This document shows, in pieces, positions 5,342 through 24,255 of a DNA stretch of 26,073 nucleotides. The notes beneath the pieces were generated by a model. That model did not search any database and was not told where the DNA came from. It saw only the letters and a program-made list of their open reading frames with translations. The DNA lies in IMG/VR virus record IMGVR_UViG_3300044949_002075, positions 1-26,073 of that record; one strand, written 5' to 3'. The DNA comes from a virus. How positions within the stretch are numbered: the stretch's first letter is position 1; every line of letters starts with the position of its first letter. Both the position numbers and the translations under genes were made by a program.

Positions 5342-6847
5342 TTACTTCCCCAAAGCAATTTTTTTCAGTCTGGCCAGCTCGTCGCTTTCTTCCAGTCCAA
5401 AGTTGGTCCAGTTGCCCGAGTATTCGTAGATGCCACATTCTTCGAGGCCATGCTTGGGACAATGCTCCCCGGCTTCGGTCATGTTGCACTGAGCTTCTTC
5501 GATAGAACTCAGATCGTCGGCTTCTTTCATGCTCTGAGCAGCTTGATCTGCCTGTGATGCAACAGGCTGTTCGGGTTTGGTTGTTTGTAGTTGACCCAGC
5601 ACTACTTCAATATCGGGACTTTGATCAGATAGCTCTTGCATGCGAGCCATCACTATGCTGCGAGCATCAGCATCAGCATTGGCATCAGCAAGCTCGTGCA
5701 GTCTGTCAAACAGTTCGTCGTCGCCCAAAACATCATACAATTGTTCCGTGGCATTGGTTGCATCTGCTCCCACTGGGAAGTTCTTGCTCAACAAATCAAT
5801 CAATGTTTGTTTTTGTTCTGGTGTTTCGGGCAAGGCCCAGGTGCCCTCGGCCAAATTGTTGATCCAGGATTCAAAAATTTGTGTTTCTTTCATGGCAGCT
5901 GCCTCCTGTGTTATACGAGCCAGAATTGGCAAGGCTTCTTCGATTCTGTGATCAATTGTTTGCTTCACAAACAAATCTTTGATGTCTTCGATCACAATGT
6001 CGCCCTCGGTTACTTCAGCGGGGGCCCAGCTCTCAAAATAGGCTTTGTAGCCTCGTCCCGATCCCAAATGCTTGAGAATGCTGTGCATGTTTCGATAGTA
6101 AGCATCAGTTTGCTCCACTAGATTTTTGGTATCGCCTTCGAAAATTTGTCCCGAATTGGCTCTGCGAAAACGACTCAACACTGCCAGTTGTTCAACAATT
6201 TCGTTGATGTGTGTTCCACGAGCGTCATAAGGAGTTCCGCCCTGACGCACATGTTCCAGCATGGCCTTGGCCGCAGTCAAGCTGCGAGTTTTCATTTTGA
6301 ATCTCTCGCCGTGAGCTGTTTCCAAAAAGATACTGTCTATGTAACGAAAACGTGCTTCGCCTTCGCCCAAGGACTTTTTGTGTTTGATCAAAATTCGAGC
6401 TTCTGTGGGTGCGCCACTCCAACTTGTGGCTCCACGACCCTGCCAGCTTTCCAGCAGGCCTTCTGTGATGGACGCTTGACTTTGACGAACAAATTTTTCT
6501 TTGTTGATGTTTTCTGGTTGAAAATTTAAAAAATTCTTGGTTGCAAGTTGTTTGAGTTGATACATGAACTCAAACCAATCAGTTTTGTCTTGCCCTTCCA
6601 TGGTTTTACCAATGTTGTCCCCAAACATCAACGTAATGTCCTTGCTGTTGACATAGATCACCACGGTGCCGTAGTTTTTGCCCGATTGCGGAACATAGTC
6701 AAACACAAATTTATCAGCCGCACTGTTGTCTGGATCGCCGTTGTCGTCCACCGGGGATCTATCTGTTTTACTGTCTTTTGCTTCGACATTGAAGTTTTTA
6801 GTGACCAAAAGATCAAAAAGTTGTTGGGATGCTGTATTCGTTGACAT
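5342..6847 (-). CDS. Large phage protein of unknown function with C-terminal Cys/His module
   Basis: This 501-residue protein follows the terminase. Residues 40-130 look globular (FVFDYVPQ, TVVIYVNSKDITLMFG). The rest is helical and acidic, with stretches such as ADANADADARS. Near the C-terminus C453, C462, H465 and C470 (CPKHGLEEC) could form a zinc site, followed by a short helix SDELARLKKIALG. I do not recognise a catalytic motif. The position after gp17 and the acidic helical character could suit a virion or scaffold-related role, but this is inference. I chose the ATG at 6847: it is eleven bases past the terminase stop and directly behind a late promoter box. The upstream 14 residues to 6889 would overlap the terminase. 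No Shine-Dalgarno is present. Confidence 0.75.
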   Translation of the reverse strand: MSTNTASQQLFDLLVTKNFNVEAKDSKTDRSPVDDNGDPDNSAADKFVFDYVPQSGKNYGTVVIYVNSKDITLMFGDNIGKTMEGQDKTDWFEFMYQLKQLATKNFLNFQPENINKEKFVRQSQASITEGLLESWQGRGATSWSGAPTEARILIKHKKSLGEGEARFRYIDSIFLETAHGERFKMKTRSLTAAKAMLEHVRQGGTPYDARGTHINEIVEQLAVLSRFRRANSGQIFEGDTKNLVEQTDAYYRNMHSILKHLGSGRGYKAYFESWAPAEVTEGDIVIEDIKDLFVKQTIDHRIEEALPILARITQEAAAMKETQIFESWINNLAEGTWALPETPEQKQTLIDLLSKNFPVGADATNATEQLYDVLGDDELFDRLHELADANADADARSIVMARMQELSDQSPDIEVVLGQLQTTKPEQPVASQADQAAQSMKEADDLSSIEEAQCNMTEAGEHCPKHGLEECGIYEYSGNWTNFGLEESDELARLKKIALGK

Positions 6848-6854
6848 AGTCTTA

Positions 6855-6862
6855 TATTTAGC
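6855..6862 (-). promoter_or_regulatory. Late promoter box containing the terminase stop codon
   Basis: GCTAAATA on the minus strand contains the TAA stop of the large terminase (6860-6858). If spaced as in T4 (octamer at -13 to -6), transcription would begin at about 6849, two bases before the ATG at 6847, giving an almost leaderless mRNA. Confidence 0.5.
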
Positions 6863-8423
6863 GCATGACAATAAAGGGCAAGGGCTCAATCATTACATCG
6901 CCGTGATCCCGAATTTGACTGTCCATTTCTGTGTGATAGCTTTGTAGCAACTGCATCATACGCACAACCAGCAGCGTAGACATCACAAGATCGTCGGTTT
7001 CTCCGGGCTTGGCAGCATAACTGGTGCCGTGTGCCACAAATGTTTTTAGCTCGCTGACCAAGGGTTTTGAGTGTATTTTCATGCGACGGGATTCTATCAA
7101 AACTTTGAGTTTGTTGCAGGCTGTGATTTTTGATTTGTTTGTGGTATTGAAACCTTTGCGCCAGCGACGCCCTGTGGATGCTGTCACTGTGCCATCACTG
7201 AGGAAATATCCTTCGATGTTTTCTTCTCCATATTCTGCAATAGAGATCAGTGCTGCTTCACCAATGGTGTTGTTTTCCACTGAATAATAAACAGAATTTT
7301 TGTCTTTGACGTAGCTGTTGACATGTTTGATTATGTCAGCCATGATTTTGACCTGAGTTGGGATATCTGTGCGATTATGACGCCATTCGCCAATTTGAGT
7401 AGTTGTGTTGGCTTCGAATATCTGAATAGCCGCAGGATCGCTACCTGTGCCCAAACTGGGATCTAGAGCAATCACATAAATTTTGCCTGGTTCAGGATTT
7501 TTATACCAACGCACTTGGCCTGTTTTGTAAGCAGGCTCTATGCCCTCGATATCAATCAGTGTGGTAGGAGCAATCAACGTTTCGTCGTTGATCACAAATT
7601 CACAGCCAATTTCTCTGCGGAAGCGATCTGTGCCCAGCTGTGCTTCCATGTCCCGTCCCCACTGCTCATCTCGATCAGGGTGCTCGCGCCAGTATGCTCG
7701 ATAGGCTCTAAATCCATTTCGGCCCACTTCTGTGGGATTGCCGTATTCGTCTTCGCACTTGTTGGCCATCTTCCAGATGTAGGCAAATTGGTCTTCGTCG
7801 GAGTTGGGTGTGGATGTAATAATGGCTTTACCGCCAGTGGCCAGTGTGGGACTGATAGAAGTCCAGAACTCTTTGGCGATACCCGGTCTGACGAATGCAA
7901 ATTCGTCAGCGTATAACAGTGTGATACTCATACCACGTCCGGTGTTTTCTGTGGTTGTTGCTGACACAATACGTGATCCGTTTTCAAAGTCGATTGAGCC
8001 TTTGTTGTAGCTGATAACACCTGCTCTAATATGGTCAGGACACAGTTCATATGCAAATCTAATACGCTGCATGATTTCTTGGGCACCTGTGTATTTGTGG
8101 GCAGCAATTAGAATTGTGGAATCCGGCACAAACATAGCATACCACAACAAGTAGCCTGCTGCCGATGTCGACTTGCCAGTTTGTCGCGGCATCAGCGAGA
8201 TTGAAAAACGATAATTGTGATAGGTATGAATCAGTCGTTGTTGATACTCATAGGGATGATACAACATCTTGCCCCGTGTAGGGTGCTGGATGTAGAAAAA
8301 ATTGTCCATGAAGTATTCTGGACCTGTGTCTGGATCTGCACAGCGCAGAAATTCTTCCAGCTGTTGTTCTGAGAACACCTGCTTTTTGTGCGGTGACTTG
8401 ACTAATACGCCTTCTAATGCCAT
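6858..8423 (-). CDS. 17: Large terminase subunit (gp17-like), packaging ATPase and nuclease
   Basis: The 521-residue protein carries all the expected motifs in order: an adenine-binding Q region near YEYQQRLI, Walker A PRQTGKST at 79-86, Walker B ITLLYADEFAFV at 167-178 with the catalytic E, and coupling motif TSTPNS at 203-208. A C-terminal RNase H-like nuclease starts with VIALDPSLGTGSDP (D321), with later acidic residues in YYSVENN and TDDLV. It cuts concatemeric DNA and pumps it into the prohead with the small terminase at the portal. Its length is a little under T4 gp17 (610). The ATG at 8423 has no Shine-Dalgarno but is preceded by a late promoter box whose predicted start is the A of the ATG. 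Confidence 0.95.
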   Translation of the reverse strand: MALEGVLVKSPHKKQVFSEQQLEEFLRCADPDTGPEYFMDNFFYIQHPTRGKMLYHPYEYQQRLIHTYHNYRFSISLMPRQTGKSTSAAGYLLWYAMFVPDSTILIAAHKYTGAQEIMQRIRFAYELCPDHIRAGVISYNKGSIDFENGSRIVSATTTENTGRGMSITLLYADEFAFVRPGIAKEFWTSISPTLATGGKAIITSTPNSDEDQFAYIWKMANKCEDEYGNPTEVGRNGFRAYRAYWREHPDRDEQWGRDMEAQLGTDRFRREIGCEFVINDETLIAPTTLIDIEGIEPAYKTGQVRWYKNPEPGKIYVIALDPSLGTGSDPAAIQIFEANTTTQIGEWRHNRTDIPTQVKIMADIIKHVNSYVKDKNSVYYSVENNTIGEAALISIAEYGEENIEGYFLSDGTVTASTGRRWRKGFNTTNKSKITACNKLKVLIESRRMKIHSKPLVSELKTFVAHGTSYAAKPGETDDLVMSTLLVVRMMQLLQSYHTEMDSQIRDHGDVMIEPLPFIVMR

Positions 8424-8428
8424 GGCAG

Positions 8429-8436
8429 TATTTAAC
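8429..8436 (-). promoter_or_regulatory. Late promoter box directly before the terminase
   Basis: GTTAAATA on the minus strand contains the TAA stop of the preceding 90-residue gene (8434-8432). With T4-like spacing the transcript would start at 8423, exactly the A of the terminase ATG, predicting a leaderless message. It is the weakest match to the consensus among the boxes listed. Confidence 0.4.
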
Positions 8437-8704
8437 GTAATCGGGATTGGTTCAATGCAAACCAGGCCGGTGTTCCTGGACGGATACCCAGCTGTTTTGC
8501 TTCGTTTCTCAGTTCAAAATGTTGGTCTGATATTTGTTGACGTCGATGTGCATCGTAGGCTTGAGTCAATGCAGCAGGGGTCAGTGTGCCCAGCATGCCT
8601 TGTGATTTGATAGCGTGTATGGGATCCTGGGGATCAAGATAACAATCCCCAGAAGAATCTGCGGAACCTAGATTTTGTGTTGTAAAACGCAGTTCTCGTG
8701 TCAT
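8432..8704 (-). CDS. Small protein of unknown function before the large terminase
   Basis: This 90-residue basic helical protein ends with a AKQLGIRPGTPAWFALNQS stretch; the GIRPGTPAWF segment looks like a conserved core. It lacks the coiled-coil and gp16-like features of a small terminase, and a better gp16 candidate lies at 15988-16473. The start at 8704 overlaps the nuclease stop as ATGA, so it is coupled to the secreted nuclease gene. A start two residues upstream is possible but less economical. I do not know its function. Confidence 0.7.
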   Translation of the reverse strand: MTRELRFTTQNLGSADSSGDCYLDPQDPIHAIKSQGMLGTLTPAALTQAYDAHRRQQISDQHFELRNEAKQLGIRPGTPAWFALNQSRLR

Positions 8705-9156
8705 TGGCACCAGGAGGTTTTGGCTTCTCCGTAGTATTCTCTAGCAAAACCATTGGCAATCAGGCCCTGACGCAGACTACGACCGTCTAAAATGATATCT
8801 CCCAGCACACGACCACCAAACTTGTCCCAATTGTATAATGTGACCTGTCGTTTTTGGCTCGATGCAATCGCACTTTTAGTGAACTCTGTGGCGGCTTTGC
8901 CTCTAGCATCTTCTTGAGGGCACTGTGCTCTGTGTCCTTTTTCTGGTGTGTCCACACCATAGATTCTAACGGCCAGCTCTGGCTTGAGCGGAGCAGGTAG
9001 AAACGGGGCCGCTATGACCACAGTGTCGCCGTCATTGATGCGAACTATCTGTGCGTCATAGGTTACCCCTTGTGGTGTTTTTTGTGCCATGGCCAAGCAT
9101 GGAATCAGTAAAAGAGTGAGTAGTAGTTTTTTCGTATGGGTATCTATTTTATACAT
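8701..9156 (-). CDS. Secreted staphylococcal-type thermonuclease (SNase fold)
   Basis: Residues 1-24 form a Sec signal peptide: basic KK, hydrophobic LLLTLLLIPCL, and AMA-Q as a likely cleavage site. The mature part is an SNase domain with DGDT at 42-45, VRIYGVDTPE at 63-72 (R64, D69 and E72 correspond to R35, D40 and E43 of staphylococcal nuclease), and GGRVLGDI containing R116, the equivalent of R87. All catalytic residues are present, so it should be a calcium-dependent nuclease exported to the periplasm or medium, perhaps to recycle host DNA or attack competing DNA. The ATG at 9156 lies seven bases after the preceding stop. Codon 8 is ACG, in the position of the ATG of the related signal peptide at 10103, suggesting an N-terminal extension. 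Confidence 0.88.
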   Translation of the reverse strand: MYKIDTHTKKLLLTLLLIPCLAMAQKTPQGVTYDAQIVRINDGDTVVIAAPFLPAPLKPELAVRIYGVDTPEKGHRAQCPQEDARGKAATEFTKSAIASSQKRQVTLYNWDKFGGRVLGDIILDGRSLRQGLIANGFAREYYGEAKTSWCQ

Positions 9157-9162
9157 TTAATG

Positions 9163-9810
9163 TTAAACCCCTACTGGCACACAGGTTACGATTGCAGAAG
9201 GGATTGCAGGCCTATCAGGATTTGTGGGAGCGGCTATGGCCAACAGTCGTATGTTGGCGTCCAGGCTGTACCATCTCAACTGGAAAGTGTCGCCTGCATC
9301 AAAATCTTCTACAAAATTAAGAGCAAATATCACATAATCATTGGCACCTGTTAGACGTATTCTAGTATTGGTGTTGGCAACATTGTTGCCATTTTTGGCC
9401 AACCATGATTCGGCAAAATCTGTGCCGCCGTCGGTTTTGGTAAACTGATAACTGACTTGTATGTTATAGGTTCCTGCTTCGGTGATTGTCCATACATTGC
9501 CTGCGGCAGTGACTCCTTGTTCATACCAGGAGTTGTTTACGGATATATTACTAACGGTGTTGGCTGTGATTGTCTGGGTGACGTTGCTGTACCAAGAACC
9601 AAAAGTTTGGGAGGCGCCCGAAAAAATGCTAGTGAGCTGACCGGCATTATTTCCTATATACAAAGCTGGAGGATCCACTGTTAAATTTGCAACTAACTCG
9701 CCAGGGCGAGCATTGCCATCATAATTGTCAATGGTTTCTTGTGCATTGTCCTTCATCACAGCACGGCTGATGCCGGTAATGTCGTCGTATGGTGGTGGTG
9801 GATTTGCCAT
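9163..9810 (-). CDS. Virion protein with C1q/TNF-like jelly-roll domain
   Basis: The 215-residue protein has two parts. The N-terminal ~60 residues (ITGISRAVMKDNAQETIDNY, then NARPGELVANL and PPALYIGN) form an attachment module of the kind found at the start of phage tail or decoration proteins. Residues ~70-200 look like a C1q/TNF-like jelly roll: alternating strands with AGTYNIQVSYQFTKTDGGTD, ESWLAKNGNNV, and NFVEDFDAGDTFQLRWYS. Such domains usually make trimeric, ligand-binding knobs, so it may be a surface fibre, collar or capsid decoration that touches the host. The start overlaps the preceding... next gene's stop arrangement is TAATG at 9810-9812. The family assignment is from recalled pattern. 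Confidence 0.7.
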   Translation of the reverse strand: MANPPPPYDDITGISRAVMKDNAQETIDNYDGNARPGELVANLTVDPPALYIGNNAGQLTSIFSGASQTFGSWYSNVTQTITANTVSNISVNNSWYEQGVTAAGNVWTITEAGTYNIQVSYQFTKTDGGTDFAESWLAKNGNNVANTNTRIRLTGANDYVIFALNFVEDFDAGDTFQLRWYSLDANIRLLAIAAPTNPDRPAIPSAIVTCVPVGV

Positions 9811-10103
9811 TATCTTGGATAGCCTTTGAATGCTTTGATAGGACTTTGTGTGTCAACAAATGCAGGTTCTTGACTGTCTGCTGTGCTTACTAGTTCTTTG
9901 CCGCCAGCGGTGTTGGTCATTGCCAATGCCTGATCAATAATTTGTTCAATGCCACTATTCATGCCCGCCACAACACCATGTTCTCCAAATGCTGTTTCTG
10001 CCGTCCATTCAGGCATGTCTTTGGTCAGCCCATCAGTGCCGGCATCACTTTTTGCAAGAGCCATGGCAGGCACCAGTAGTAGGGTTAACAATAGTTTTTT
10101 CAT
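9810..10103 (-). CDS. Chimeric small protein: signal peptide joined to a head-protein paralog
   Basis: The 97-residue protein begins with a signal peptide-like MKKLLLTLLLVPAMALA, nearly the same as that of the nuclease at 8701-9156. From WTAETAFGEH to KAFKGY it matches the C-terminal part of the protein at 10757-11137 (43 of 63 residues identical by my hand count). It lacks the MRAREF N-terminus of that paralog. The two sources meet at an A-M-A codon run where all three genes share GCCATGGC. The product may be exported instead of packaged, or it may be a non-functional recombinant; the intact frame and good start argue for retention. Its start overlaps the preceding gene as ATGA. Confidence 0.8.
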   Translation of the reverse strand: MKKLLLTLLLVPAMALAKSDAGTDGLTKDMPEWTAETAFGEHGVVAGMNSGIEQIIDQALAMTNTAGGKELVSTADSQEPAFVDTQSPIKAFKGYPR

Positions 10104-10600
10104 TTTCTAACTTCCTTGGTTGTGTCTGGCCACCACTCGGGATCTGGGTTCAATTTGTTTTTGTATAGTTGTTTGATGCGTTTTTCGTATTCTTCTTTGC
10201 TGCCTTTGACTCGACCCGACACCACATCCATCACATAATTCAATGTCACTGCATTGGCACTCAGTGTGGCACAACGGGCAGTTACTTCGTTTTTCAACAA
10301 ATCCAGCAGAATACTCTCAGAACTTTCTGCCAGAACTCTCACATATTTTTTAGGCACATGCAGATCTATGGTGCTGTAGACAAAATCGTAGTGCGGAGCT
10401 GGGCAACAATGAAGCACATACTCATCTATGACTTCAATACGCTTGAAGCCATCGCGGTCATACCATACTGCACGTTCAGCAGTTAGTTCTGTGGGGGCAC
10501 CTAGTTTTTTGGTCAGCTGCTTGACAAACTCTCTAGGTTCGTCGTTGTTCCACTGAGCTAGTGGATTTCGGCTTTCGAGTAAGACATCGCGGATCAACAT
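10100..10600 (-). CDS. Protein of unknown function with capsid-targeting-like N-terminus
   Basis: The 166-residue protein starts MLIRDVLLESRNP; the first nine residues resemble a T4 capsid-targeting peptide ending in a prohead-protease site (L-L-E). A globular middle follows (RIEVIDEYVLHCC, DFVYSTIDLHVPKKYVRVL), then a helix-rich region (ESILLDLLKNEVTARCATLSA in part) and a basic tail (KEEYEKRIKQLYKNK). I do not recognise a function. Its stop overlaps the next start as ATGA, and it begins two bases after the stop of a 50-residue gene. It lies in the run of probable head-associated small genes. Confidence 0.75.
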   Translation of the reverse strand: MLIRDVLLESRNPLAQWNNDEPREFVKQLTKKLGAPTELTAERAVWYDRDGFKRIEVIDEYVLHCCPAPHYDFVYSTIDLHVPKKYVRVLAESSESILLDLLKNEVTARCATLSANAVTLNYVMDVVSGRVKGSKEEYEKRIKQLYKNKLNPDPEWWPDTTKEVRK

Positions 10601-10601
10601 A

Positions 10602-10754
10602 TCAAGCCCAATTTACTAAGTTGGTATCAACACCAAAGATTCGCACAGCGTTGGTACGAACAAAAACGTTGCCTGTGGCTTCGTCGAGCTCTAAGGCCTG
10701 ATTGATGTTACGTAGATACCACGGTGCTACTTGTGTAGGATCTGGGACCGCCAT
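10602..10754 (-). CDS. 50-residue protein resembling a detached fibre/virion N-terminal module
   Basis: The minus-strand frame runs from ATG at 10754 to TGA at 10604-10602 and encodes 50 residues starting MAVPDPTQVAPWYLRN and containing ALELDEATGNVFVRTNAVRI before ending VNWA. It fits exactly between its neighbours (two-base gaps) and AAAGGATA from the upstream gene's end serves as Shine-Dalgarno, so it is a real gene despite its size. The PWYLRNINQAL and NVFVRT segments resemble, from memory, the start of longer phage fibre or virion proteins. Here the C-terminal domain is absent. It may be a truncated remnant or a minimal virion component. Confidence 0.75.
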   Translation of the reverse strand: MAVPDPTQVAPWYLRNINQALELDEATGNVFVRTNAVRIFGVDTNLVNWA

Positions 10755-10756
10755 TG

Positions 10757-11137
10757 TTAATATCCTTTAAATGCTTTAACAGGGCTTTGTGTGCCAACAA
10801 AGGCAGGCTCTTCGCTGGCTGCTGTGCTGATTAATTTTTTACCGCCGGGTGTTTTGGTCATTGTAAGCGCAGCATCAATCACAGGATCAACATTGTTGTT
10901 GAATCCCACAATCACAGCATGTTCACCAAATGCCGTTTCTGCTGTCCACCCAGGACGAAAATCATTTACCGTGTCGGTTGCGGTATCGCTTCTGGCTCGG
11001 GCCATGGCCACACCAAATCGATAATTCCGGTAAGGATCAGAAGCACTGAGACCCGGAAGAACAAATGTGTTTTTCAATGGCTCTCGAATTTCTGGAGGCA
11101 GCTCTCGTTGCTCTCTAATGAATTCACGTGCTCTCAT
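10757..11137 (-). CDS. MRAREF-family small head-associated protein (paralog 2)
   Basis: The 126-residue protein begins MRAREFIREQRELPP, whose first nine residues resemble a capsid-targeting peptide with an I-x-E protease site. After a proline-rich linker comes YRNYRFGVAMARARSDT and the C-terminal domain WTAETAFGEH to KAFKGY that it shares with the gene at 9810. It ends in KGY where the other paralogs end GYPR. The KGY codons and stop form AAAGGATATTAACA, the ribosome-binding site of the 50-residue gene. It is coupled to the preceding paralog by an ATGA overlap. The function is unknown; packaging inside the head is inferred from the N-terminal peptide. Confidence 0.78.
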   Translation of the reverse strand: MRAREFIREQRELPPEIREPLKNTFVLPGLSASDPYRNYRFGVAMARARSDTATDTVNDFRPGWTAETAFGEHAVIVGFNNNVDPVIDAALTMTKTPGGKKLISTAASEEPAFVGTQSPVKAFKGY

Positions 11138-11505
11138 CTTGGGTATCCCCCAAATCCCACCACTGGACTTTTTGTGTTTACCGCAGGATGTTCTTCACTG
11201 TCCATATCACCGCTGTTGAGATCTTGCCATTCTGCTCCAGCAGATTTGTATGCCTGCTTAAGCATGTTTTGTTCTTGTTGAGTATATGGATGTGCAGAAC
11301 GACGTGTTCCTACCCAACTCATGTCCTCAATCTCAACTGGCGTGTCTGATCCATCAGCACAGGCAACTGCCATCATCACACGATTGAGAACATAATCACT
11401 ATTGGTTTTGCGTTTGTCTCTGAAAAGATGCAGACCTCGAGTAGCCTGTTGAATTCTCAAACCAGGCTTACCAAGTTGTTCAGTTACAAACTCGCGTGCT
11501 CGCAT
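11134..11505 (-). CDS. MRAREF-family small head-associated protein (paralog 3)
   Basis: The 123-residue protein begins MRAREFVTEQLGKPG. It shares the architecture of the next gene: an N-terminal peptide ending in V-T-E, a Y-x-x-N-R start of a helix (YVLNRVMMAVACADGSDTP aligned to YRNYRFGVAMARARSDT), and an ending KSPVVGFGGYPR comparable to QSPVKAFKGY. The central part (HPYTQQEQNMLKQAYKSAGA) is more divergent, so it is an older duplicate. Stop and start overlap the following paralog as ATGA. I do not know its molecular role. The tandem arrangement suggests expansion of a family of internal or capsid-bound proteins. Confidence 0.78.
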   Translation of the reverse strand: MRAREFVTEQLGKPGLRIQQATRGLHLFRDKRKTNSDYVLNRVMMAVACADGSDTPVEIEDMSWVGTRRSAHPYTQQEQNMLKQAYKSAGAEWQDLNSGDMDSEEHPAVNTKSPVVGFGGYPR

Positions 11506-11506
11506 A

Positions 11507-11803: not shown

Positions 11804-11820
11804 ATCTTTTTCTTTCTATA

Positions 11821-15358: not shown

Positions 15359-15967
15359 TTATCCTCTTGGGTTACGGCCAGTAGCTGGCTTGGGCGGACG
15401 CTTGACTGTGCTCATTGGGCTCTTGTCGCCCTGTGGCAAATCATTTGTTGTTTCTGCTGGTTTGGTTTTTTCGCCAGCAATGGTAAAGTTTGAACGATAG
15501 GCGTTCTTGAGAACTGCATGATCGTATGGACCAGTGGCATAATCTTTGCTCAATGCTTTTTGCTTGGCATCAGGAGCAGGATAATCAGTGTCGTCTATGA
15601 GATCTTTGTTTTGATCTTCGATGTCGGTGCGTTCTTCTTGATTGTTTTCGCTGTAGTTGGGAGTCTGCATCAACACACGATTGGGATCCATGCCCAGCAA
15701 TTGTGCAATCTGTCTGATTTGTGCATCTATGGCAGGATAGCGAAACTCTACGTCCACAGTGGAAATACGTTCATTGCTGAATGCTGGAAAGTCGGGGGTG
15801 CGTGCCTGTATCGGAGTGCTTTTGACATCGCCGACCTTGACTGGATCAAATTGATCAAGTTTGGTCTTGAATGCTTTTAAAAATTCGCTGGGCACATCAC
15901 CGGCAAATTTGATGCGATAAGAGTAGGTTCTTTCGCTTTCAATCAAATAATCTCTGAAGTGTTTCAT
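15359..15967 (-). CDS. Probable head protein with CTS-like N-terminus
   Basis: The 202-residue protein begins MKHFRDYLIESERTYSYRIK, where the first ten residues are very like the T4 internal-protein targeting peptide (M-K-x-[YF]-x-[ED]-[FY]-[IL]-x-E). Residues 14-95 look like a compact alpha/beta domain (YRIKFAGDVPSEFLKAF, VDVEFRYPAIDAQIRQIAQL). The remainder is polar and proline-rich with a basic end (KRPPKPATGRNPRG), probably disordered. A late promoter box (15985-15992) lies upstream, giving a 12-base leader with AGGA as Shine-Dalgarno. Its 3' codons (AGAGGATAA) supply the ribosome-binding site for the 786-residue gene. Confidence 0.75.
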   Translation of the reverse strand: MKHFRDYLIESERTYSYRIKFAGDVPSEFLKAFKTKLDQFDPVKVGDVKSTPIQARTPDFPAFSNERISTVDVEFRYPAIDAQIRQIAQLLGMDPNRVLMQTPNYSENNQEERTDIEDQNKDLIDDTDYPAPDAKQKALSKDYATGPYDHAVLKNAYRSNFTIAGEKTKPAETTNDLPQGDKSPMSTVKRPPKPATGRNPRG

Positions 15968-15984: not shown

Positions 15985-15992
15985 TATTTATG
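15985..15992 (-). promoter_or_regulatory. Late promoter box after the small terminase gene
   Basis: CATAAATA on the minus strand contains the TAA stop of the small-terminase candidate (15990-15988). Predicted transcription begins near 15979, twelve bases before the ATG at 15967, with AGGA between them. It would drive the head-protein block 15967-8432. Confidence 0.6.
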
Positions 15993-16473
15993 AGGATTTA
16001 TTGTTTTGAGTTCTAGTGGCCAGCAGGCGTTCCAGCAAATCGTTGCGATTCAGCACTTGCCCTTGTGCTGTTTCAGCTGGACTGCCATCGTCACCTTTGT
16101 CTTGATCAAGTTTTAGTTTCTTCATTTGAAGTTCAATCATCTTGATCTTTTTGTTCATTTTGGCTGTTTTTGCTGTGAGTGCATGTCCCAGCATGGTGCC
16201 TGCCACTGCAAATATCTCGCTGGCAAAACGACTGTCCACATTCATGCCAAGATCCATGAGTTCATCAAATGTTTTGGTTGCCTTGCTGGCCAGTTCGTCC
16301 ATTTCATTGTCTGACGCATCCAGGTCACGCACTGCAGGCAGTGCAGCGTCAATTTTGTCAATGGTTTCGTCAATGGCCACCAGTGCACTGCGAGTTTCGT
16401 TGATGGCGGGCTCTGAATCTGATTCGGGTTCAGTAACAGGTAAATCGAAAAGCTGCTCTAATTTTCTGGTCAT
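15988..16473 (-). CDS. 16: Probable small terminase subunit (gp16-like)
   Basis: The 161-residue protein matches T4 gp16 (164 residues) in size and plan: an acidic N-terminus, a central long helical region (residues ~60-130, e.g. DSRFASEIFAVAGTMLGHAL and AKMNKKIKMIELQMKKLKL) that would form the ring coiled-coil, and a C-terminal segment VLNRNDLLERLL after a disordered linker. It should recognise viral DNA and stimulate the gp17 ATPase. In T4 gp16 directly precedes gp17, but here they are about 7.5 kb apart. The ATG at 16473 has no Shine-Dalgarno and is four bases after a late promoter box. The assignment is from architecture, not alignment. Confidence 0.62.
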   Translation of the reverse strand: MTRKLEQLFDLPVTEPESDSEPAINETRSALVAIDETIDKIDAALPAVRDLDASDNEMDELASKATKTFDELMDLGMNVDSRFASEIFAVAGTMLGHALTAKTAKMNKKIKMIELQMKKLKLDQDKGDDGSPAETAQGQVLNRNDLLERLLATRTQNNKSS

Positions 16474-16477
16474 GCCA

Positions 16478-16485
16478 TATTTATG
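16478..16485 (-). promoter_or_regulatory. Late promoter box at the small terminase start
   Basis: CATAAATA on the minus strand ends four bases before the ATG at 16473. With T4-like spacing, transcription starts at about 16472, within the start codon, so any transcript from it would be leaderless or would lack the first base. It lies just past the stop of the gp4 gene (16491-16489). Confidence 0.5.
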
Positions 16486-17279: not shown

Positions 17280-17282
17280 AAT

Positions 17283-18536
17283 TTACCTCACAGTGCCACG
17301 AGCTGCAATTTGATTGGCCAAATCTCTTGGTGTGGTGGCAGGTGCAGGACCAGGCACAGTGGATTGAGACGGTGTTGGGAAGAAAATTCCGTCCAATATT
17401 CCTCGCTGGCCTGTGCCAGGAATTCCACGAGTTCCCGGTGTTCCAATCACAGCACGCTGAACAGCAGGTAACGCACCCCTGGCAATGGCCGAGGCACTTT
17501 GTCTAACTTCTCGATTGGCAATGCTGGCAAGATTTTTGTCTTTGTAGGTGTTGTAAGCAGCCAGTGCTTTTTGTGCTGCACCAACATATCCAGCCACGCC
17601 GCCTGATGCCAAGTCTTCAGCAATACCAATTCCAGTGTCAACAAGTCCGCCTTGTCCCAACACAGTTGCATTGGTTCCCGGTCTTGTGATTCCACTGCGA
17701 ATGGTATCGTAGTAGCTGGGATCAGCAAATCCCACTGCGTTGGTATCTGGTCTCACATCTCCAATGGCACCAGTTCCATACTTTACAGTTTCGTAACGTA
17801 TGGTCATTCTGTTAGCCATGGTGCCATTGCTTTGAGCATAGTCATAGGTGTCATGTTGCCATTCAGTGATCAATGGATTGATCAAAATGTAACTGGCCCA
17901 CTTGTGCTGATTGAATCCATAGATTCTGATATCTCTAAAAAACGGTGGCTTGCCTGTTCTACTGATAGAAAATGTGTCGCCGCCATCGTTGTAACTTTCT
18001 CCAATATAGCCCCAGTCGTTGACAGTTCTATCGTTGTTGTATATGTCTCTGTCGTTGTAGCTGAAAGCATTGGGACTGCCAATCAAAGGACCCAAACTAC
18101 CATTGGTATTGGTTAGATTATCATACTTCTGACTGGGATCTTTGTAGTAGTATGAATAATAACTATACCAAAAGTCTCGAATCAAGTCGCCGCCGTCGTC
18201 ATGAAATTCAAATTGAACTGGTTGATAATCAATTTTTGTTTGAACCAATCTCTTGCGATTGTATTGATTCATGGTTTCCACTGAAATATTATAGTTGGGC
18301 AGCTGAACATTTTTTACCATGAGGCCAATGGTAGCAATTTCTTCGTTGTCACCAAATGCAGATCTCAGTGCAGGCACAAAAGCAGTGTTGATGGTAAAAT
18401 ACACATGGAAGAGATATTTGTGCCGAGGCGCAAACTGGTATCCATTAGACAAAAAGGTTTTAGCGGCGTGTGTGTAATCTTTTACACCTTCGATGCCGGT
18501 AAAACCTTTTAAAATATAATCTTGTCCAAATGCCAT
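17283..18536 (-). CDS. Second tail-tube-like protein (gp19/gp54-like)
   Basis: The 417-residue protein has a tube-protein core in residues ~35-260. It contains HKYLFHVYFTINTAF, an inner strand region LPNYNISVETMNQYNRKR, the turn QTKIDYQPVQFEFHDDGGD and a late strand NRMTIRYETVKYG. These parallel the gp19 layout: KLKYRFRVTF, then strands, then AMTIRYDNA. A glycine- and proline-rich C-terminal extension (~300-417) is added (GTPGTRGIPGTGQRG). In T4 the paralogous tube-fold protein gp54 initiates the tube on the baseplate; this could be its equivalent or a tail terminator. It lies immediately after gp19, consistent with a tail role. Confidence 0.65.
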   Translation of the reverse strand: MAFGQDYILKGFTGIEGVKDYTHAAKTFLSNGYQFAPRHKYLFHVYFTINTAFVPALRSAFGDNEEIATIGLMVKNVQLPNYNISVETMNQYNRKRLVQTKIDYQPVQFEFHDDGGDLIRDFWYSYYSYYYKDPSQKYDNLTNTNGSLGPLIGSPNAFSYNDRDIYNNDRTVNDWGYIGESYNDGGDTFSISRTGKPPFFRDIRIYGFNQHKWASYILINPLITEWQHDTYDYAQSNGTMANRMTIRYETVKYGTGAIGDVRPDTNAVGFADPSYYDTIRSGITRPGTNATVLGQGGLVDTGIGIAEDLASGGVAGYVGAAQKALAAYNTYKDKNLASIANREVRQSASAIARGALPAVQRAVIGTPGTRGIPGTGQRGILDGIFFPTPSQSTVPGPAPATTPRDLANQIAARGTVR

Positions 18537-18548
18537 GGATAAGACCTA

Positions 18549-19205
18549 TTAGACCACCGTGGTTGGTCCAGTTGCTACTGATCCACGAGGTCTTGTGCCA
18601 ATATCAGCACCAACACCGTCAGCTTGTCCGCTGGCTGCATTGATCTGCATTGCATTGTCGTATCTAATGGTCATGGCCACTGTTACCGGTTCACTGGTTC
18701 CGTAGTTCATGTCACCGTAGTTGACTTCGCTCAAGTAGCAACCATACATTTCCCACTGCTCCAACACCACTGGCTCGACTGTTCCATTGCCACCGTCGAG
18801 AACCTGCAGAGTGGTTGTGAACTTGTAATCGATACCAGCCGCTGCTGATGCTTGTTCAGCAAAGTCCAATTGCTTCTGCAGTTGTTCGCCAACAAGTCTG
18901 GTAATCTGTCCACTGGCATCATCGCGAACGTTACAAGTAACATCACCCCAGCTGTGCTTGCCAGCCAGTTTGATAGTGGAGTTGTAGATTGGAATGTCAA
19001 TGGGCTCAAACGTCAATGTGGGACGAGTAAAGTCCATGACCTGTTTGGTTAGTTCTGTGGTAGGCGAAGCACTGTTTGTAACGCCAAATCCTTCAAATGT
19101 TACTCTGAATCTATACTTCAGTTTTGGCATCAACAAGCCCTGAGTTGTTTGACTCTGGTCGCTTGCCAAAGGCACTGTCATTTTTGTTAATGATGCTACT
19201 GCCAT
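18549..19205 (-). CDS. 19: Tail tube protein (gp19-like)
   Basis: The 218-residue protein has the tail-tube fold pattern: MPKLKYRFRVTFEGFG, KQVMDFTRPTLTFEPIDI, SWGDVTCNVRDD, and the final strand VTVAMTIRYDNA. T4 gp19 is 163 residues; here the extra length is a Gly/Thr-rich C-terminal tail (~195-218) and a longer N-terminus. Rings of this protein form the inner tube through which DNA passes on ejection. It has its own perfect late promoter (TATAAATA, 19227-19234) and AGGAG Shine-Dalgarno, and a terminator separates it from gp18, so it can be made in excess. Confidence 0.88.
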   Translation of the reverse strand: MAVASLTKMTVPLASDQSQTTQGLLMPKLKYRFRVTFEGFGVTNSASPTTELTKQVMDFTRPTLTFEPIDIPIYNSTIKLAGKHSWGDVTCNVRDDASGQITRLVGEQLQKQLDFAEQASAAAGIDYKFTTTLQVLDGGNGTVEPVVLEQWEMYGCYLSEVNYGDMNYGTSEPVTVAMTIRYDNAMQINAASGQADGVGADIGTRPRGSVATGPTTVV

Positions 19206-19226
19206 GTTATATCTCCTGTATGTGTT

Positions 19227-19234
19227 TATTTATA
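19227..19234 (-). promoter_or_regulatory. Consensus late promoter for the tail tube gene
   Basis: TATAAATA on the minus strand equals the T4 late consensus. The predicted start is near 19221, leaving a 15-base leader with AGGAG before the ATG at 19205. It follows the terminator at 19249-19280, so tail tube transcription is independent of gp18. Confidence 0.75.
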
Positions 19235-19248
19235 CTGTTTTGGTCGAG

Positions 19249-19280
19249 AAAAAAATAGGGTCTGCGAGGACCCTATTTTT
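19249..19280 (-). terminator. Rho-independent terminator after gp18
   Basis: AAAAATAGGGTC (19251-19262) pairs perfectly with GACCCTATTTTT (19269-19280), with a six-base loop. On the minus strand the stem ends in a run of seven T. It lies about 20 bases past the gp18 stop and before the gp19 promoter. The arrangement is a textbook intrinsic terminator. Confidence 0.85.
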
Positions 19281-19299
19281 CAAACTGTTTACCAATACT

Positions 19300-22200
19300 T
19301 TATGCACTGGTAGCCACGGTGCTGATGCCACTGGCAATTTCACCGGTGTTCTTCAAGCGCAGAGGAATGTAGATGAATTCAACTGCTTTCACTGGCTCGA
19401 TTGCAATATCAACCCACAACTCATTGCGATCGATACGTGCAGGTGTGTTGTTGGTCAAGTCGCAGATCACAAGATAATCGTAGATTCCACGCTTGTTGAG
19501 CAGGTCGATCATCAGTGAGTTAATGGCACTGCTGATTTGATTTCGAGTGATCTGGTCGTTGGGTTCAAACAAGAACGACTTGCCAATGTCTTGCAATCTG
19601 TTGCGGATGTAAGCAACCAAACGAGCTACGTTGATTCGATCCAGCACAGATGCAATAGAGGTCACTGTCTTGTTGCCAAAGTTTGTGATACCCACACCAG
19701 GAACAAATGTAATTGGGTTAATATCAAGTTCATATAGAACATCTCTCAATCCTTGGTTGACTCCCAGTGTTATAAATTCACCTGTGGTAGCATTCACATA
19801 ACCAATGCGCAGAGCATTGTCAACCACACCGCGACGTGTTCCAGCTGGTGCCAACCACGGATATGCCACTTCATCTGAACGCAACACTGTTCTCAACATC
19901 ATGTGGCTGGGCGGTTGAACAACCAAACTACCGCTGAGATCTGTGGTTTGGCAGCTGGGATAGAACACACCAAGATAAGGATCAGCTGTTACTAATCCAT
20001 CGCCTGTGCTAAAGCCGACTCCAGAATTGTTAGTGGCCCAGGCCTGTACCGCTGTGGCATCGGGGGCCAATCTCAGCGGAGTATCTCCAATAACAAAAGC
20101 AGTGTTGTTACGATCGTTGTTGAGTTCCACCATGTTGGGGATCAACTCAGGATACTGAGGGCAAGTAATAAGATTGAACTGACGTTGCTCTTCTCGGATT
20201 TGAGTAGACGCATCAATTCCTGCCTTGAGTGCCTGAACAATCAACGCTCGCTGTGCCTGCCGTCCCATGTATGGGCTACCGTTGTTTTTGTTTCCGCTGG
20301 CATTTACCCAGGCATTGGTAACAGTGGGCAGTGTGTCATCAGGGAAGCTTTGAGCGTTGAAGTAATCAACTTGAAAGCTCTTGACGTTGAAGCCGCTGCG
20401 ACGTGTGTTGAACAACAACATGCCCTGTGGATACAGTGCTGGACTTGGAGCATCTAGGTCCAAATAATCGCTGACCAGCAAGCTTGTGATGCTGGGAATA
20501 GGATCAACAATGGGATCAGTCGTGCCGTTGGGAGCCCAACGTGCATCAGCAAATACAATCCCATCTTCTGTGGTTTGATCAGTGTTTACAAGCTGTACCC
20601 ATTGATCCGCACCATCTATGTTTTGCCAACGACTGATTACCGGGTAGTTTTCAAGGTCAGCAGTATCAATCCATAGATCTCCATAGACCAGCGGACTCTG
20701 AGCTGTGTCATTTTGTGTCACAGGTGCAGTAGCAGAGAAGATTGGCCCACTGGCATTGGTATCAGTTAGATTAAAACCACGAACATCATTGTCTACCATT
20801 TGATAGCCCATCCAGGCGCCGTTGTTTTGAATCAAAATATCTGCCTGGGTGTTAGAACTATAAAACCACAAACGACCATCAGCTGGATCTTGACTTGGAC
20901 CAGTTGAACTGGCTGTATATGTAAAGAACGGACTGCTAGTGAAATTTGACAGAATCAAACTGTTATTTGGTCCAGGATTAACACCCTGTATAGTTGTATT
21001 GAAACCAGCTGTGGTGAGTGGGATACCAGAGATATTGCCCATTACAATATCACCACCTGTGCTGTGTGTAAACACAATAGCACCGTCACTGTTTACTGAT
21101 GCACTGACATAAGGCACCGCAGCAGCTGATACAGCAGAAATAAAATCTGCTACAGTGGTTCCAGTTAAAGTAACAGTAACTGAATCAGTTAAATCAGACG
21201 TGCCTGGCTGTGTGGCTCTAATAAAGAAACTATTGCTGATTACAAAAGGACCGGGGCTGGTATCATCACCTGTGATCACTGTGGTTCCGGTGGCATAGTA
21301 TTCAAAAATTTCCAGGCCAGCAGTATCAGGTGTTGTGAAGCCTGGATTTAATCTTGCCCAGGTGGTGCCAATAGGAATATTTTTGCCGCCACCGCTGGGA
21401 TCCAATGCATACACTGCACTGTTGCCATCGGGGTAAATTGGCACAGCTTGTTGAATAAATGTTCCCAGCACACTGGAGTATTTCTTTAACACAAGATTAG
21501 CACCGAGATTCACGTTGTTGGTCTTTTGCCACACAGATCCTGTTGGTTCAGGTTGTGTATCGGTTGATCTCCAACGAGGCTGACTAAAGCTTGCACCAGC
21601 AAAGAAAGCAGGAGCATAGTATGTTTTGGCAGTGATTCCAACCGCAGTAAGAGGAGTTCCTGTGCCGTTTTCAATTATGACTGCGCCTTCTCCTGCTGTA
21701 GATCCGTCTGCAGTAGCAGTGGAATCAGCATAAATCACCAACTTACCACTAGCAACACCAGAATAAACGCCTGTAATAGCAGCGGTATTAATGTTGTCTG
21801 ACAGAATTTTTACGTTGGCAGTTGCGCCGTTGCCAACGTTAACAGTTTGTCCGTTGATAATAACTGTGTCACCGTTGTTAAGAGTTGGACTTGTAGCTGT
21901 GCCCTGAATGGTTGCCCAAGCTGTTTTCCATTCATCGCTGCCTACCAGCACCCATTCATTGTATAAATCAACAAGATCAGTTGATGATGAATAGTTTACA
22001 GTTGCGCTGTATGAACTGGTGCTGGGACCATTGCGTTTGTAATAAATTGGATTGAGAACAGTCACATCGGTATTCACTACAACAGCATAGTCGCCGATTG
22101 AACCAACGGTTTGCAGTGGAACAGTGCCGCCAAGATTAAGATCAGTGCTGCTAGTAATAACTATAGGCACTTGATTTGTAAATGCAGCAGTGGTCTGATT

Positions 22201-22647
22201 CCATTGAAAAATTCCCCAGGTTGTGTTGGCAGTGTCTAGCCAAAAATCACCGTCGTTGGGATTGCCAGTGGGACGGACCAAGCTGGCAGTGAGTTCAGTA
22301 AGGTCAATATCAGCACGTTGCACATAGCAGCGATTAGAAACTCCCAGGGCCGAATAAGCAGCAAGTAATCCGTATTCGTTAAGTTCGTAACCATTGATTG
22401 GTGTGCCAGCTGTGGTCTTGTAAAAGAAAGGAACGCCAAAAGTGGCTGATAGATCTCGCTGACTGGTAATCAAATAAGGAACGTTTGAATTTGCCTGTAG
22501 TGTGCCAGCAGCAACACCGGTTCCTGTTCCAGAAACTTTGTTTTGTGCTGTTGCAATCAACACATAAGGGACTGAGTTGGTCGCAGCAGGAATATATTGA
22601 CTTTCGTCAACTACTGTTACTTCTACGCCGGGTGAAATTAGTGCCAT
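19300..22647 (-). CDS. 18: Tail sheath protein (gp18-like), unusually long
   Basis: The 1115-residue protein opens with the sheath signature SPGVEVTVVDES, then VPYVLIATAQNK and YELNEYGLLAAYSALG near 86-101. It ends with a conserved-looking sheath core: NLITCPQYPELIPNMV, GVGFSTGDGLV, PITFVPGVGITNFGNKT, and RIDRNELWVDIAIEPVKAVE. T4 gp18 is 659 residues; here the extra ~450 lie between about 115 and 770 and include repeated short modules of the form GD(F/L)W-D-T followed by W. These would make protruding sheath domains. Sheath contraction drives the tube through the cell envelope. It has a GATAAATA late promoter and AAAGGA Shine-Dalgarno and ends at an intrinsic terminator. Confidence 0.92.
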   Translation of the reverse strand: MALISPGVEVTVVDESQYIPAATNSVPYVLIATAQNKVSGTGTGVAAGTLQANSNVPYLITSQRDLSATFGVPFFYKTTAGTPINGYELNEYGLLAAYSALGVSNRCYVQRADIDLTELTASLVRPTGNPNDGDFWLDTANTTWGIFQWNQTTAAFTNQVPIVITSSTDLNLGGTVPLQTVGSIGDYAVVVNTDVTVLNPIYYKRNGPSTSSYSATVNYSSSTDLVDLYNEWVLVGSDEWKTAWATIQGTATSPTLNNGDTVIINGQTVNVGNGATANVKILSDNINTAAITGVYSGVASGKLVIYADSTATADGSTAGEGAVIIENGTGTPLTAVGITAKTYYAPAFFAGASFSQPRWRSTDTQPEPTGSVWQKTNNVNLGANLVLKKYSSVLGTFIQQAVPIYPDGNSAVYALDPSGGGKNIPIGTTWARLNPGFTTPDTAGLEIFEYYATGTTVITGDDTSPGPFVISNSFFIRATQPGTSDLTDSVTVTLTGTTVADFISAVSAAAVPYVSASVNSDGAIVFTHSTGGDIVMGNISGIPLTTAGFNTTIQGVNPGPNNSLILSNFTSSPFFTYTASSTGPSQDPADGRLWFYSSNTQADILIQNNGAWMGYQMVDNDVRGFNLTDTNASGPIFSATAPVTQNDTAQSPLVYGDLWIDTADLENYPVISRWQNIDGADQWVQLVNTDQTTEDGIVFADARWAPNGTTDPIVDPIPSITSLLVSDYLDLDAPSPALYPQGMLLFNTRRSGFNVKSFQVDYFNAQSFPDDTLPTVTNAWVNASGNKNNGSPYMGRQAQRALIVQALKAGIDASTQIREEQRQFNLITCPQYPELIPNMVELNNDRNNTAFVIGDTPLRLAPDATAVQAWATNNSGVGFSTGDGLVTADPYLGVFYPSCQTTDLSGSLVVQPPSHMMLRTVLRSDEVAYPWLAPAGTRRGVVDNALRIGYVNATTGEFITLGVNQGLRDVLYELDINPITFVPGVGITNFGNKTVTSIASVLDRINVARLVAYIRNRLQDIGKSFLFEPNDQITRNQISSAINSLMIDLLNKRGIYDYLVICDLTNNTPARIDRNELWVDIAIEPVKAVEFIYIPLRLKNTGEIASGISTVATSA

Positions 22648-22672
22648 GGTAAATCCTTTTTCTAGCTACTGA

Positions 22673-22680
22673 TATTTATC
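22673..22680 (-). promoter_or_regulatory. Late promoter box for gp18
   Basis: GATAAATA on the minus strand, with a predicted start near 22667 and a leader of about 19 bases carrying AAAGGA before the ATG at 22647. It is divergent to the plus-strand box at 22730-22737. Confidence 0.65.
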
Positions 22681-22711
22681 GATAGCCGAAAAAAGAACCC
22701 CGACACAGTGC

Positions 22712-22724
22712 CCTTACCGTAAGG
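22712..22724. promoter_or_regulatory. 13-bp palindrome between divergent promoters
   Basis: CCTTACCGTAAGG is a perfect inverted repeat with a one-base centre. It cannot fold as an RNA hairpin, so it would be recognised as duplex DNA. It lies six bases upstream of the plus-strand promoter box and 32 bases from the gp18 box; an operator or sigma-related site is possible. Confidence 0.3.
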
Positions 22725-22729
22725 TTTTA

Positions 22730-22737
22730 GCTAAATA
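22730..22737 (+). promoter_or_regulatory. Late-type promoter box for the plus-strand gene
   Basis: GCTAAATA ends four bases before the ATG at 22742. T4-like spacing puts transcription start at about 22743, within the start codon; there is no Shine-Dalgarno. A true mRNA would be leaderless or would use another promoter. Confidence 0.4.
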
Positions 22738-22741
22738 CATC

Positions 22742-23089
22742 ATGAAACGACCCATGTGTCCGGCCTGCAATCAAAGACCCAAGGCCATAAATTGCTACCG
22801 CGGTGAAAAAATTTACTACCGAAGTCGCTGCGAAGTGTGCATCAAGAAGAACAAAAAGATCAAGCCGCCTATGCCGAGATGGCAAACAGCAGGCTACAAG
22901 AAAAAACCCACATGTGACCGCTGTGGGTTTAGAGCAAGATACTCAGCACAACTACAGGTGTTTCATGTTGATGGCAATTTGCACAACAGCGACATTCGCA
23001 ACTTAAAAACTGTGTGTCTTAACTGTGCCGAGGAAGTAAAACGCAGTGATGTTAATTGGAATCGTGGGGATCTTGAGCCAGACGTTTGA
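22742..23089 (+). CDS. Zinc-ribbon HNH-like protein (only plus-strand gene)
   Basis: The 115-residue protein has two CxxC pairs in its first half (C6/C9 and C30/C33) and two in the second (C58/C61 and C92/C95). Between the latter lies VFHVDGNLHNSDIRNLKT. The H-V-D-G-N with later N and N-L, closed by C-x2-C, is the HNH/treble-clef pattern, with H75 as the candidate general base. It may be a small endonuclease or a DNA-binding zinc protein. Its start is directly behind a late promoter box. Its last 38 bases overlap antisense the end of the dNMP kinase gene, so mRNA from both strands would be complementary there. Confidence 0.75.
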   Translation: MKRPMCPACNQRPKAINCYRGEKIYYRSRCEVCIKKNKKIKPPMPRWQTAGYKKKPTCDRCGFRARYSAQLQVFHVDGNLHNSDIRNLKTVCLNCAEEVKRSDVNWNRGDLEPDV

Positions 23090-23699
23090 CCTGACGATAT
23101 AGATCATCCAGTGTGCTGTTGTTGTCCAGCACAACATCAAACTCTGTGCCAACCCAGGCAGTTTCACTGGCATGTATTCCCAATCGTTGCAATTTTCCAG
23201 TGCTCAGGCTCCAGGTGGGATTTCCATCGGGGCCGCGATTGGCACTGACCGCAGCATCATACCATTCAGGCTCGGGTCCGCGCACTACTCTTACTATTTT
23301 TCCCCCTGCTGCTTTGATTGATTTGATTTCGTTGGGAAAGCGACAATCAGTGATTACAATATCGTCCTGAGAGTTGCGTAGTTTGTTTTCCAAACTTGCG
23401 ATCCAAATATCGTCGTGAAATCCCCGTCGGCAGACTTCTGTTCCCCATAGCTGTAGCATCAATCGAGGTGTAACTTCACGGCCCAACCGAGCGCTCCACC
23501 ACTTGTCAGGCTGTTCGCGCCATTCCCTGCTTTGTTTGGTGCGCCCTTCCAGCATGGTCCGATCCCACCCAAATACCTGAGCGACTGCATCTTTGAGACT
23601 GTTGGCAAAACTCTCTCTGCGAAAATGATGCAAATTAACAAGATAATCTGCTACAGTATCTTTTCCTGAGCCAATGAATCCACAAATTCCAATAATCAT
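23052..23699 (-). CDS. 1: Deoxynucleoside monophosphate kinase (gp1-like)
   Basis: The 215-residue protein has an N-terminal P-loop (MIIGICGFIGSGKDTVADYL, GFIGSGKDT at 7-15) and the T4 gp1 family features: a lid region with RTKQSREWREQPDKWW, VTPRLMLQLWGTEVCRRGF, and a Walker B-like strand DIVITDCRFPNE. It phosphorylates dNMPs to dNDPs to supply phage DNA synthesis. The start at 23699 was chosen over the open frame to 23810, because AGGAG lies seven bases upstream and the start overlaps the exonuclease stop as ATGA. It is transcribed with the exonuclease from the promoter at 24227-24255 and converges on the plus-strand gene. Confidence 0.88.
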   Translation of the reverse strand: MIIGICGFIGSGKDTVADYLVNLHHFRRESFANSLKDAVAQVFGWDRTMLEGRTKQSREWREQPDKWWSARLGREVTPRLMLQLWGTEVCRRGFHDDIWIASLENKLRNSQDDIVITDCRFPNEIKSIKAAGGKIVRVVRGPEPEWYDAAVSANRGPDGNPTWSLSTGKLQRLGIHASETAWVGTEFDVVLDNNSTLDDLYRQVKRLAQDPHDSN

Positions 23700-24220
23700 T
23701 TTAACTCCTGAACATTGAGGTGTTTTAGTGTATTTTGTAACATACCAATTTGTCTGCGGCAGTCTTCTAGTGCATGGTGTGTAGTGGGCGGGATGGGCTG
23801 GCTGGGCCATAAACTAAACACAGTGCGGCTGTCTCTGACTGCATAGAACTGCCATGGCAGGGGTTTGTTGTAGCTTTTGTAGGCGTGCTCAAGTATGTTA
23901 CAGTCATATGTGGGACCTTGTGCCCAGACACGATTACTATGCCAAATCAGCTTACCTAACTCGTCTAATGCTTGATCCAGTGGTATGCGATCTTGTTCGC
24001 TAAATGCTTCGTCGCGAACAACTGCAGGTTGTGTGGCCCACCAGTCAATAGTGCCTTGTTGTATTGAACGATTTTCTTGGCTTTCCAGGGTTATTCTTGC
24101 ATAGTAACTCTGCTCGTAATAGCCTGTACTCAATGGGTCAAAGCTCTGGGCAGCTATGGTTAGTATTGTGGTGTCGGGACCTGTACCAAGTCCTTCAAGA
24201 TCGATCATTAAGTCTGCCAT
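23696..24220 (-). CDS. DEDDh 3'-5' exonuclease (DexA-like)
   Basis: The 174-residue protein shows three exonuclease motifs: ExoI LMIDLEGLGTGP with D7 and E9, ExoII WAQGPTYDCNILEHAY with its Asp, and ExoIII HHALEDCRRQ with H-x4-D. This is the DEDDh family to which T4 DexA belongs. It likely degrades single-stranded or host DNA from 3' ends for nucleotide recycling or repair. The ATG at 24220 replaces a TTG extension to 24280. No Shine-Dalgarno precedes it, and the sigma70-type promoter predicts transcription start exactly at this A. The pair with dNMP kinase supports a salvage role: exonuclease makes dNMPs that the kinase phosphorylates. Confidence 0.83.
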   Translation of the reverse strand: MADLMIDLEGLGTGPDTTILTIAAQSFDPLSTGYYEQSYYARITLESQENRSIQQGTIDWWATQPAVVRDEAFSEQDRIPLDQALDELGKLIWHSNRVWAQGPTYDCNILEHAYKSYNKPLPWQFYAVRDSRTVFSLWPSQPIPPTTHHALEDCRRQIGMLQNTLKHLNVQELK

Positions 24221-24226
24221 AGTGTT

Positions 24227-24255
24227 AGTATAACAGGGTTGTGGAAGTAAGTCAA
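24227..24255 (-). promoter_or_regulatory. Sigma70-type promoter for exonuclease-kinase pair
   Basis: On the minus strand TTGACT (24255-24250) and TATACT (24232-24227) are separated by 17 bases. The expected +1 is 24220, which is the A of the exonuclease ATG, predicting a leaderless mRNA. The -10 box matches that of the gp32 promoter exactly. Confidence 0.65.

Follow-up and report, generated by a model that had tools for sequence, protein, structure and literature searches.

Promoter-to-ATG spacing predicts a lineage-wide set of leaderless late transcripts in T4-superfamily jumbo phages

Can a phage promoter that stands directly against a start codon give rise to a messenger without a leader? 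The question is raised by a 26,073-nt stretch of viral DNA (hereafter the window), in which an initial annotation reported promoter boxes abutting five start codons that lack a Shine-Dalgarno (SD) sequence. We confirm this arrangement at all five. The boxes, their genes and four control promoters are as follows:

6855..6860, minus strand: late box TAAATA, 7 nt before the ATG of the gene at 5342-6847; likely +1 at 6850 (A), with a leader of ACU or shorter
5342..6847, minus strand: virion structural protein gene (phrog_13484), predicted to be near-leaderless; ATG and spacing conserved
8429..8434, minus strand: late box TAAATA, 5 nt before the large terminase (TerL) ATG; kept in relatives L002-L005
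6858..8423, minus strand: large terminase gene of T4 type (PF03237, phrog_36964), predicted to be leaderless in the window's own group
16478..16483, minus strand: late box TAAATA, 4 nt before the ATG at 16473
15988..16473, minus strand: phrog_16202 gene (function unknown), predicted to be leaderless
22732..22737, plus strand: late box TAAATA, 4 nt before the ATG at 22742
22742..23089, plus strand: HNH endonuclease-like gene (PF01844, match at the cut-off), predicted to be leaderless, divergent from the sheath gene
24250..24255, minus strand: sigma70 -35 element TTGACT, read from the sequence; TTGACA/TAGACA in relatives
24227..24232, minus strand: sigma70 -10 element TATACT, 6 nt before the ATG at 24220, so that +1 would be the A of ATG
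23696..24220, minus strand: DexA/Rv2179c-like 3'-5' exonuclease gene (PF16473, phrog_255), predicted to be leaderless, with a host-type promoter
19227..19232, minus strand: control late box TAAATA, 21 nt before the tube ATG (19205), SD present
22673..22678, minus strand: control late box TAAATA, 25 nt before the sheath ATG (22647), SD present
15985..15990, minus strand: control late box TAAATA, 17 nt before the ATG at 15967, SD present
25523..25528, minus strand: control late box TAAATA, 19 nt before the neck gene ATG (25503), SD present

By gene content, the 26 kb window is a fragment of a T4-superfamily jumbo phage. It contains markers of that superfamily (i.e. T4-type TerL, gp32-like SSB, UvsX, tube, sheath and head closure), together with genes for an Ad2 neck protein, a DexA-like exonuclease and a dNMP kinase. 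The window TerL is 74–100% identical to that of 80 uncultured contigs, several of 315–347 kb, while its best match among cultured phages (PA5oct and kin) reaches ∼51% identity. The relatives are IMG/VR contigs of unverified completeness, and they share ancestry, so the conservation tallies given below are not independent trials. A homologue of gp55, the late sigma factor, is found in 11/12 relatives, with weak matches (E ∼1e-7) within longer frames; these homologues lie in the relatives' genomes and none is in the window fragment itself. Two further features of the window are a GC-rich inverted repeat (GGGCCCGGTATCCCCGGGCCC) at 4160-4185, directly after ssb and just before the ATG at 4158, and a row of neighbouring small genes (9810-11505) whose ends and starts resemble one another (KAFKGY-, MRAREF- and MKKLLLTLLL-type motifs), as a duplication might produce.

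Late boxes at a spacing of 4–7 nt occur at four of the 31 gene starts in the window, against a mean of 0.02 in shuffled windows (Poisson P ∼7e-9), and the exonuclease promoter reads TTGACT-N17-TATACT-N6-ATG. AGGA, GGAG, GAGG and AAGG are all absent from positions -18 to -4 of the starts at 6847, 8423, 16473, 22742 and 24220. The initial annotation had set these genes against five promoter-linked genes with SD-bearing leaders; four of the latter stand, with a box 17–25 nt upstream and an SD, but the ssb gene (5198) has an SD and no TAAATA within 45 nt of its start. Promoter-linked genes do divide by SD, but this division alone says little. Absence of an SD is not diagnostic of leaderless genes because 11/26 other window starts have neither an SD nor a box, and the five-to-five division is partly forced because a box ending 4–7 nt before the ATG fills the SD position. 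The +1 sites had been placed 0–2 bases from each ATG: the boxes lie where they were said to lie, but the gene at 6847 is better described as near-leaderless, because its spacing of 7 makes the A three bases before the ATG the likely +1. The gene at 16473 had been proposed as a small terminase candidate, an assignment that we do not retain (it matches only phrog_16202, of unknown function, and no PDB sequence).

A short palindrome (CCTTACCGTAAGG, 22712-22724) separates the sheath promoter from the divergent HNH promoter and is followed by a T-run on the plus strand. In 73/81 relatives a stem of 5 bp or more is found at almost the same position, compared with 9.6% in shuffles, and its sequence covaries among relatives (CCTTTG..CAAAGG, CCTATATAGG, CCTACCCAGTAGG). 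It is a candidate terminator, insulator or operator. In the neck gene leader (25504-25522), TAGGGA can pair with TCCCTA around GGAG, which could hide the SD.

We then compared promoter spacing among relatives, counting distinct upstream sequences gene by gene. The box lies 3–8 nt from the ATG in 85/88 distinct relatives for homologues of 6847, in 72/78 for 22742 and in 78/99 for 16473, and the -10 hexamer of the exonuclease gene (24220) lies 5 or 6 nt from the ATG in 73/74, mostly with a TTGACA/TAGACA-like sequence upstream. Conservation of this distance, which the initial annotation had offered as a check, thus holds for four genes and fails for TerL (8423), where the box is 3–8 nt from the ATG in just 44/134 relatives, close and scattered ones. 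The controls keep the longer spacing: a box 17–30 nt upstream is present in 59/61 relatives for tube (SD in 60/61), 56/58 for sheath (SD in 58/58), 56/62 for neck (25503; SD in 58/62) and 71/83 for the gene at 15967. Spacing-conserving relatives span 25–100% protein identity. On a TerL tree (FastTree, no bootstrap, long outgroup branches), the gene after TerL is assigned as leaderless in 135, leadered in 18 and without a box in 13 of 166 cases; T4, Syn9, PA5oct, Phosso and GAP32 are leadered, and the leaderless label changes 12 times compared with 28.8 times when shuffled.

The arrangement extends well beyond the window. In four relatives of 315–347 kb (G001, G004, G007 and G005), we scanned the distance from TAAATA to every ATG opening at least 60 codons. 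The distribution is bimodal, with 125 genes at 4–7 nt (39, 35, 30 and 21, respectively), 32 at 8–16 nt (7, 6, 9 and 10) and 116 at 17–28 nt (36, 28, 25 and 27). Permuted box letters give an average of 4–7 genes per genome at 4–7 nt; the highest permutation, AAATAT, was rejected as an independent signal, as it overlaps the box itself (TAAATAT). The search term was the TAAATA core: no fixed TA precedes it, unlike in the 8-bp TATAAATA box of T4 late promoters, and the full T4 box is rare here (8–16 per genome). At spacing 4–7, ATG is the start codon in 125 cases and GTG/TTG in 11, in keeping with the AUG start of leaderless genes. An SD accompanies 3/122 genes of the 4–7 nt class versus 77/97 of the 17–28 nt class; the former value agrees with the lack of an SD in leaderless genes, though it is partly forced by geometry. 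Sigma70 -10 elements also peak, at spacing 6 (8, 8, 8 and 5 genes). The cultured genomes (T4, Syn9, PA5oct, GAP32 and Phosso) are without the near peak and contain 1–3 matches at 4–7 nt, most of them inside longer frames.

The mode appears to be a property of the gene. Among 44 families common to several genomes, 39 keep one mode (24 always leaderless, 15 always leadered) and five are mixed, whereas shuffling gives a mean of 11.5 and a maximum of 23 in 20,000 trials. Families of the predicted leaderless class include portal, gp25-like wedge, virion structural proteins, homing and HNH endonucleases, radical SAM proteins, phosphoesterases and a nucleotidyltransferase; leadered families include sheath, tube, neck, the large wedge subunit and spanin-like proteins. 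No box adjoins the major capsid gene, whose SD is strong.

Predicted +1 positions were taken from T4 and sigma70 geometry. The T4 late box lies about one helical turn upstream of the start (PMC2988020), so +1 would fall on or next to the ATG in the near class. A -10-like signal ∼10 bp before the start codon is a published mark of leaderless genes (PMC3160421), and a -10-type element is found at that distance here. The valley at 8–16 nt would correspond to leaders of ∼2–11 nt, a range also largely missing in Lactococcus cremoris, where no measured leader falls between 4 and 14 nt (PMC10986495).

Base composition gives a further signature, in families drawn from the same four genomes. With the first base after the box taken as position 1, leadered promoters show a preference for A at positions 5–7. 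At spacing 4, the A of ATG is position 5. At spacing 5 it is position 6, and 30/32 families have a pyrimidine at position 5; a purine precedes the ATG in 2/32 of these families versus 45/72 leadered ones at the same position (P 3e-8). At spacing 7, 13/18 families have A at position 5, mostly followed by two pyrimidines. This pattern fits starts on the A of AUG at spacings 4 and 5 and a putative 3-nt leader at spacing 7.

These observations suggest two kinds of late promoter on one gp55-type box. In the near kind, where the box ends 4–7 nt before the ATG, RNA polymerase would start on the A of AUG or at most ∼3 nt upstream, and the ribosome would have to initiate on a 5'-terminal AUG without an SD. 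In the far kind, where the box is 17–28 nt upstream, a short leader would carry the SD. Some host-sigma70 genes (e.g. 24220) would behave like the near kind, with 6 nt between a TATAAT-type -10 and the ATG, and a gene's choice of mode would be stable over long evolutionary distances. From placement, conservation, bimodality, SD contrast and initiator-base pattern, all computed directly, we infer that transcripts start at these ATGs and are translated as leaderless mRNAs. The initial proposal that the genes are built for leaderless transcription gains support: spacing is kept for four of the five, the class appears lineage-wide and the mode gene-specific. A lineage-wide set of leaderless (0–3 nt) late and sigma70 transcripts is thereby very probable.

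The same boxes could instead be weak or unused promoters, or largely TAA stops plus chance, on longer polycistronic late mRNAs in which ribosomes restart at a nearby ATG. Upstream genes do stop 8–15 nt before the ATG at 6847, 8423 and 16473 (three of five), which would permit coupled initiation on read-through mRNA; the box contains the TerL stop TAA in many relatives; and a further 11 window genes have neither box nor SD. However, spacing is conserved both at 22742, which diverges from its neighbour, and at 24220, which has ∼170 nt of non-coding DNA upstream. Moreover, the box stays at an unchanged distance in three relatives (L016, L020 and L055) in which the TerL stop has moved, and cultured relatives are gene-dense too but without the 4–7 nt peak. 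We regard this account as improbable.

Reading TAAATA beside the ATG as a translation signal, or as a protein-binding site on DNA or RNA, accommodates its ribosome-binding position at genes without an SD. Yet in the same genomes the same box also precedes SD-bearing genes by 17–28 nt, a position that rules out a role in ribosome binding, and a different element (TATAAT) behaves alike at the spacing that its own promoter class demands. A ribosome-binding signal is disfavoured because the late box and the sigma70 -10, with different geometries, converge on the same +1; the initiator-base preferences likewise fit transcription starts, and we consider this reading very improbable. Real promoters with flexible starts, whose mRNAs mostly begin inside the frame or a few bases upstream and are translated from a later in-frame start, would accord with the range of spacings (4 to 7) and with the likely start 3 nt upstream in the spacing-7 class. 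Homologues nevertheless keep the same ATG in frame directly after the box, and GTG/TTG is not enriched after near boxes, which leaves this possibility with the slightest credence of all.

Leaderless transcription of these genes remains the preferred reading, and several possible causes of it were considered. Phage bS21 was rejected: it is encoded by 9/12 relatives and is missing from G001, G002 and G011, of which G001 has the most leaderless genes, and it is also present in PA5oct and Phosso, both without the trait. Escape of leaderless mRNAs from RegB-type SD cleavage was rejected too, RegB exceeding the cut-off only in T4. An IF3 domain protein is encoded by the leadered phages Phosso and GAP32 and by 0/12 uncultured relatives, a suggestive pattern of two cases only. 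The nearest cellular matches of bS21 are Gemmatimonadota MAGs (∼65% over 48 aa in a pattern-limited search), too weak to name a host. Identity with the bS21 phages of PMC9723584 was not adopted: their bS21 adjoins TerL and capsid, whereas here it adjoins ClpX/ClpS-like genes, far from the capsid gene in G005. In the uncultured relatives (L490 and L493), bS21 lies beside ClpX-, ClpS- and Hsp20-like genes, named from their translations.

We speculate that low-copy proteins (portal, gp25-like wedge, nucleases and enzymes) are held at a low output by the leaderless mode and that high-copy ones (capsid, sheath, tube and neck) are made from SD leaders, an idea resting on the annotated minority of families. 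Persistence of these messages when 30S recruitment is altered, the advantage suggested in the initial annotation, is likewise a speculative purpose. It is possible, though doubtful, that leader versus no leader acts as a built-in second tier of late control, fixed for each gene, in which one box at two spacings leads to two translation routes. Such control would be matched either to copy number or to some change in the ribosome late in infection, and would have been acquired by this lineage, its cultured relatives being without it. Most leaderless phage mRNAs known so far are isolated examples. A late gene set split between leaderless and SD-led genes from one box, with the choice conserved per gene, would offer a natural comparison of two initiation routes within one infection, and promoter searches that demand an intergenic leader would miss or misplace such promoters. 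No description of lineage-wide leaderless late promoters in T4-related phages was found in the open-access papers searched, which is not proof of novelty.

In phage lambda, the leaderless gene is cI. Lambda, named as the first leaderless mRNA case (PMC3160421), resembles the proposal for 24220 in that host sigma70 transcribes a phage gene beginning with the A of AUG, but that case is a single repressor gene, whereas here a lineage-wide late gene set is predicted. Bacterial leaderless genes (Actinobacteria, Deinococcus and Lactococcus) also have a -10-like box near the ATG, no SD, an AUG start and bimodal leaders (PMC3160421, PMC10986495); unlike them, the genes described here belong to a lytic phage lineage, would depend mostly on a phage late-type box and are accompanied by a second, SD-leadered set that uses this box as well. 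T4 late promoters, read by gp55, likewise have an AT-rich box about one turn before the start and no conserved -35 (PMC2988020, PMC7892883). In T4, however, the box is mostly 17–28 nt or more from the ATG, without a 4–7 nt peak (three cases at spacing 5, two of them inside longer open frames), while 21–39 genes per genome fall at 4–7 nt here. The jumbo phage AR9 differs in having leaders of 26–491 nt (PMC5312081). PA5oct, Phosso and GAP32 share TAAATA boxes and a TerL 44–51% identical, and PA5oct and Phosso encode bS21 as do most uncultured relatives; in all three, however, the gene after TerL has its box 21–30 nt upstream and no genome-wide 4–7 nt peak is seen. T4 and the cultured jumbo relatives examined have ordinary leaders for nearly all promoter-linked genes.
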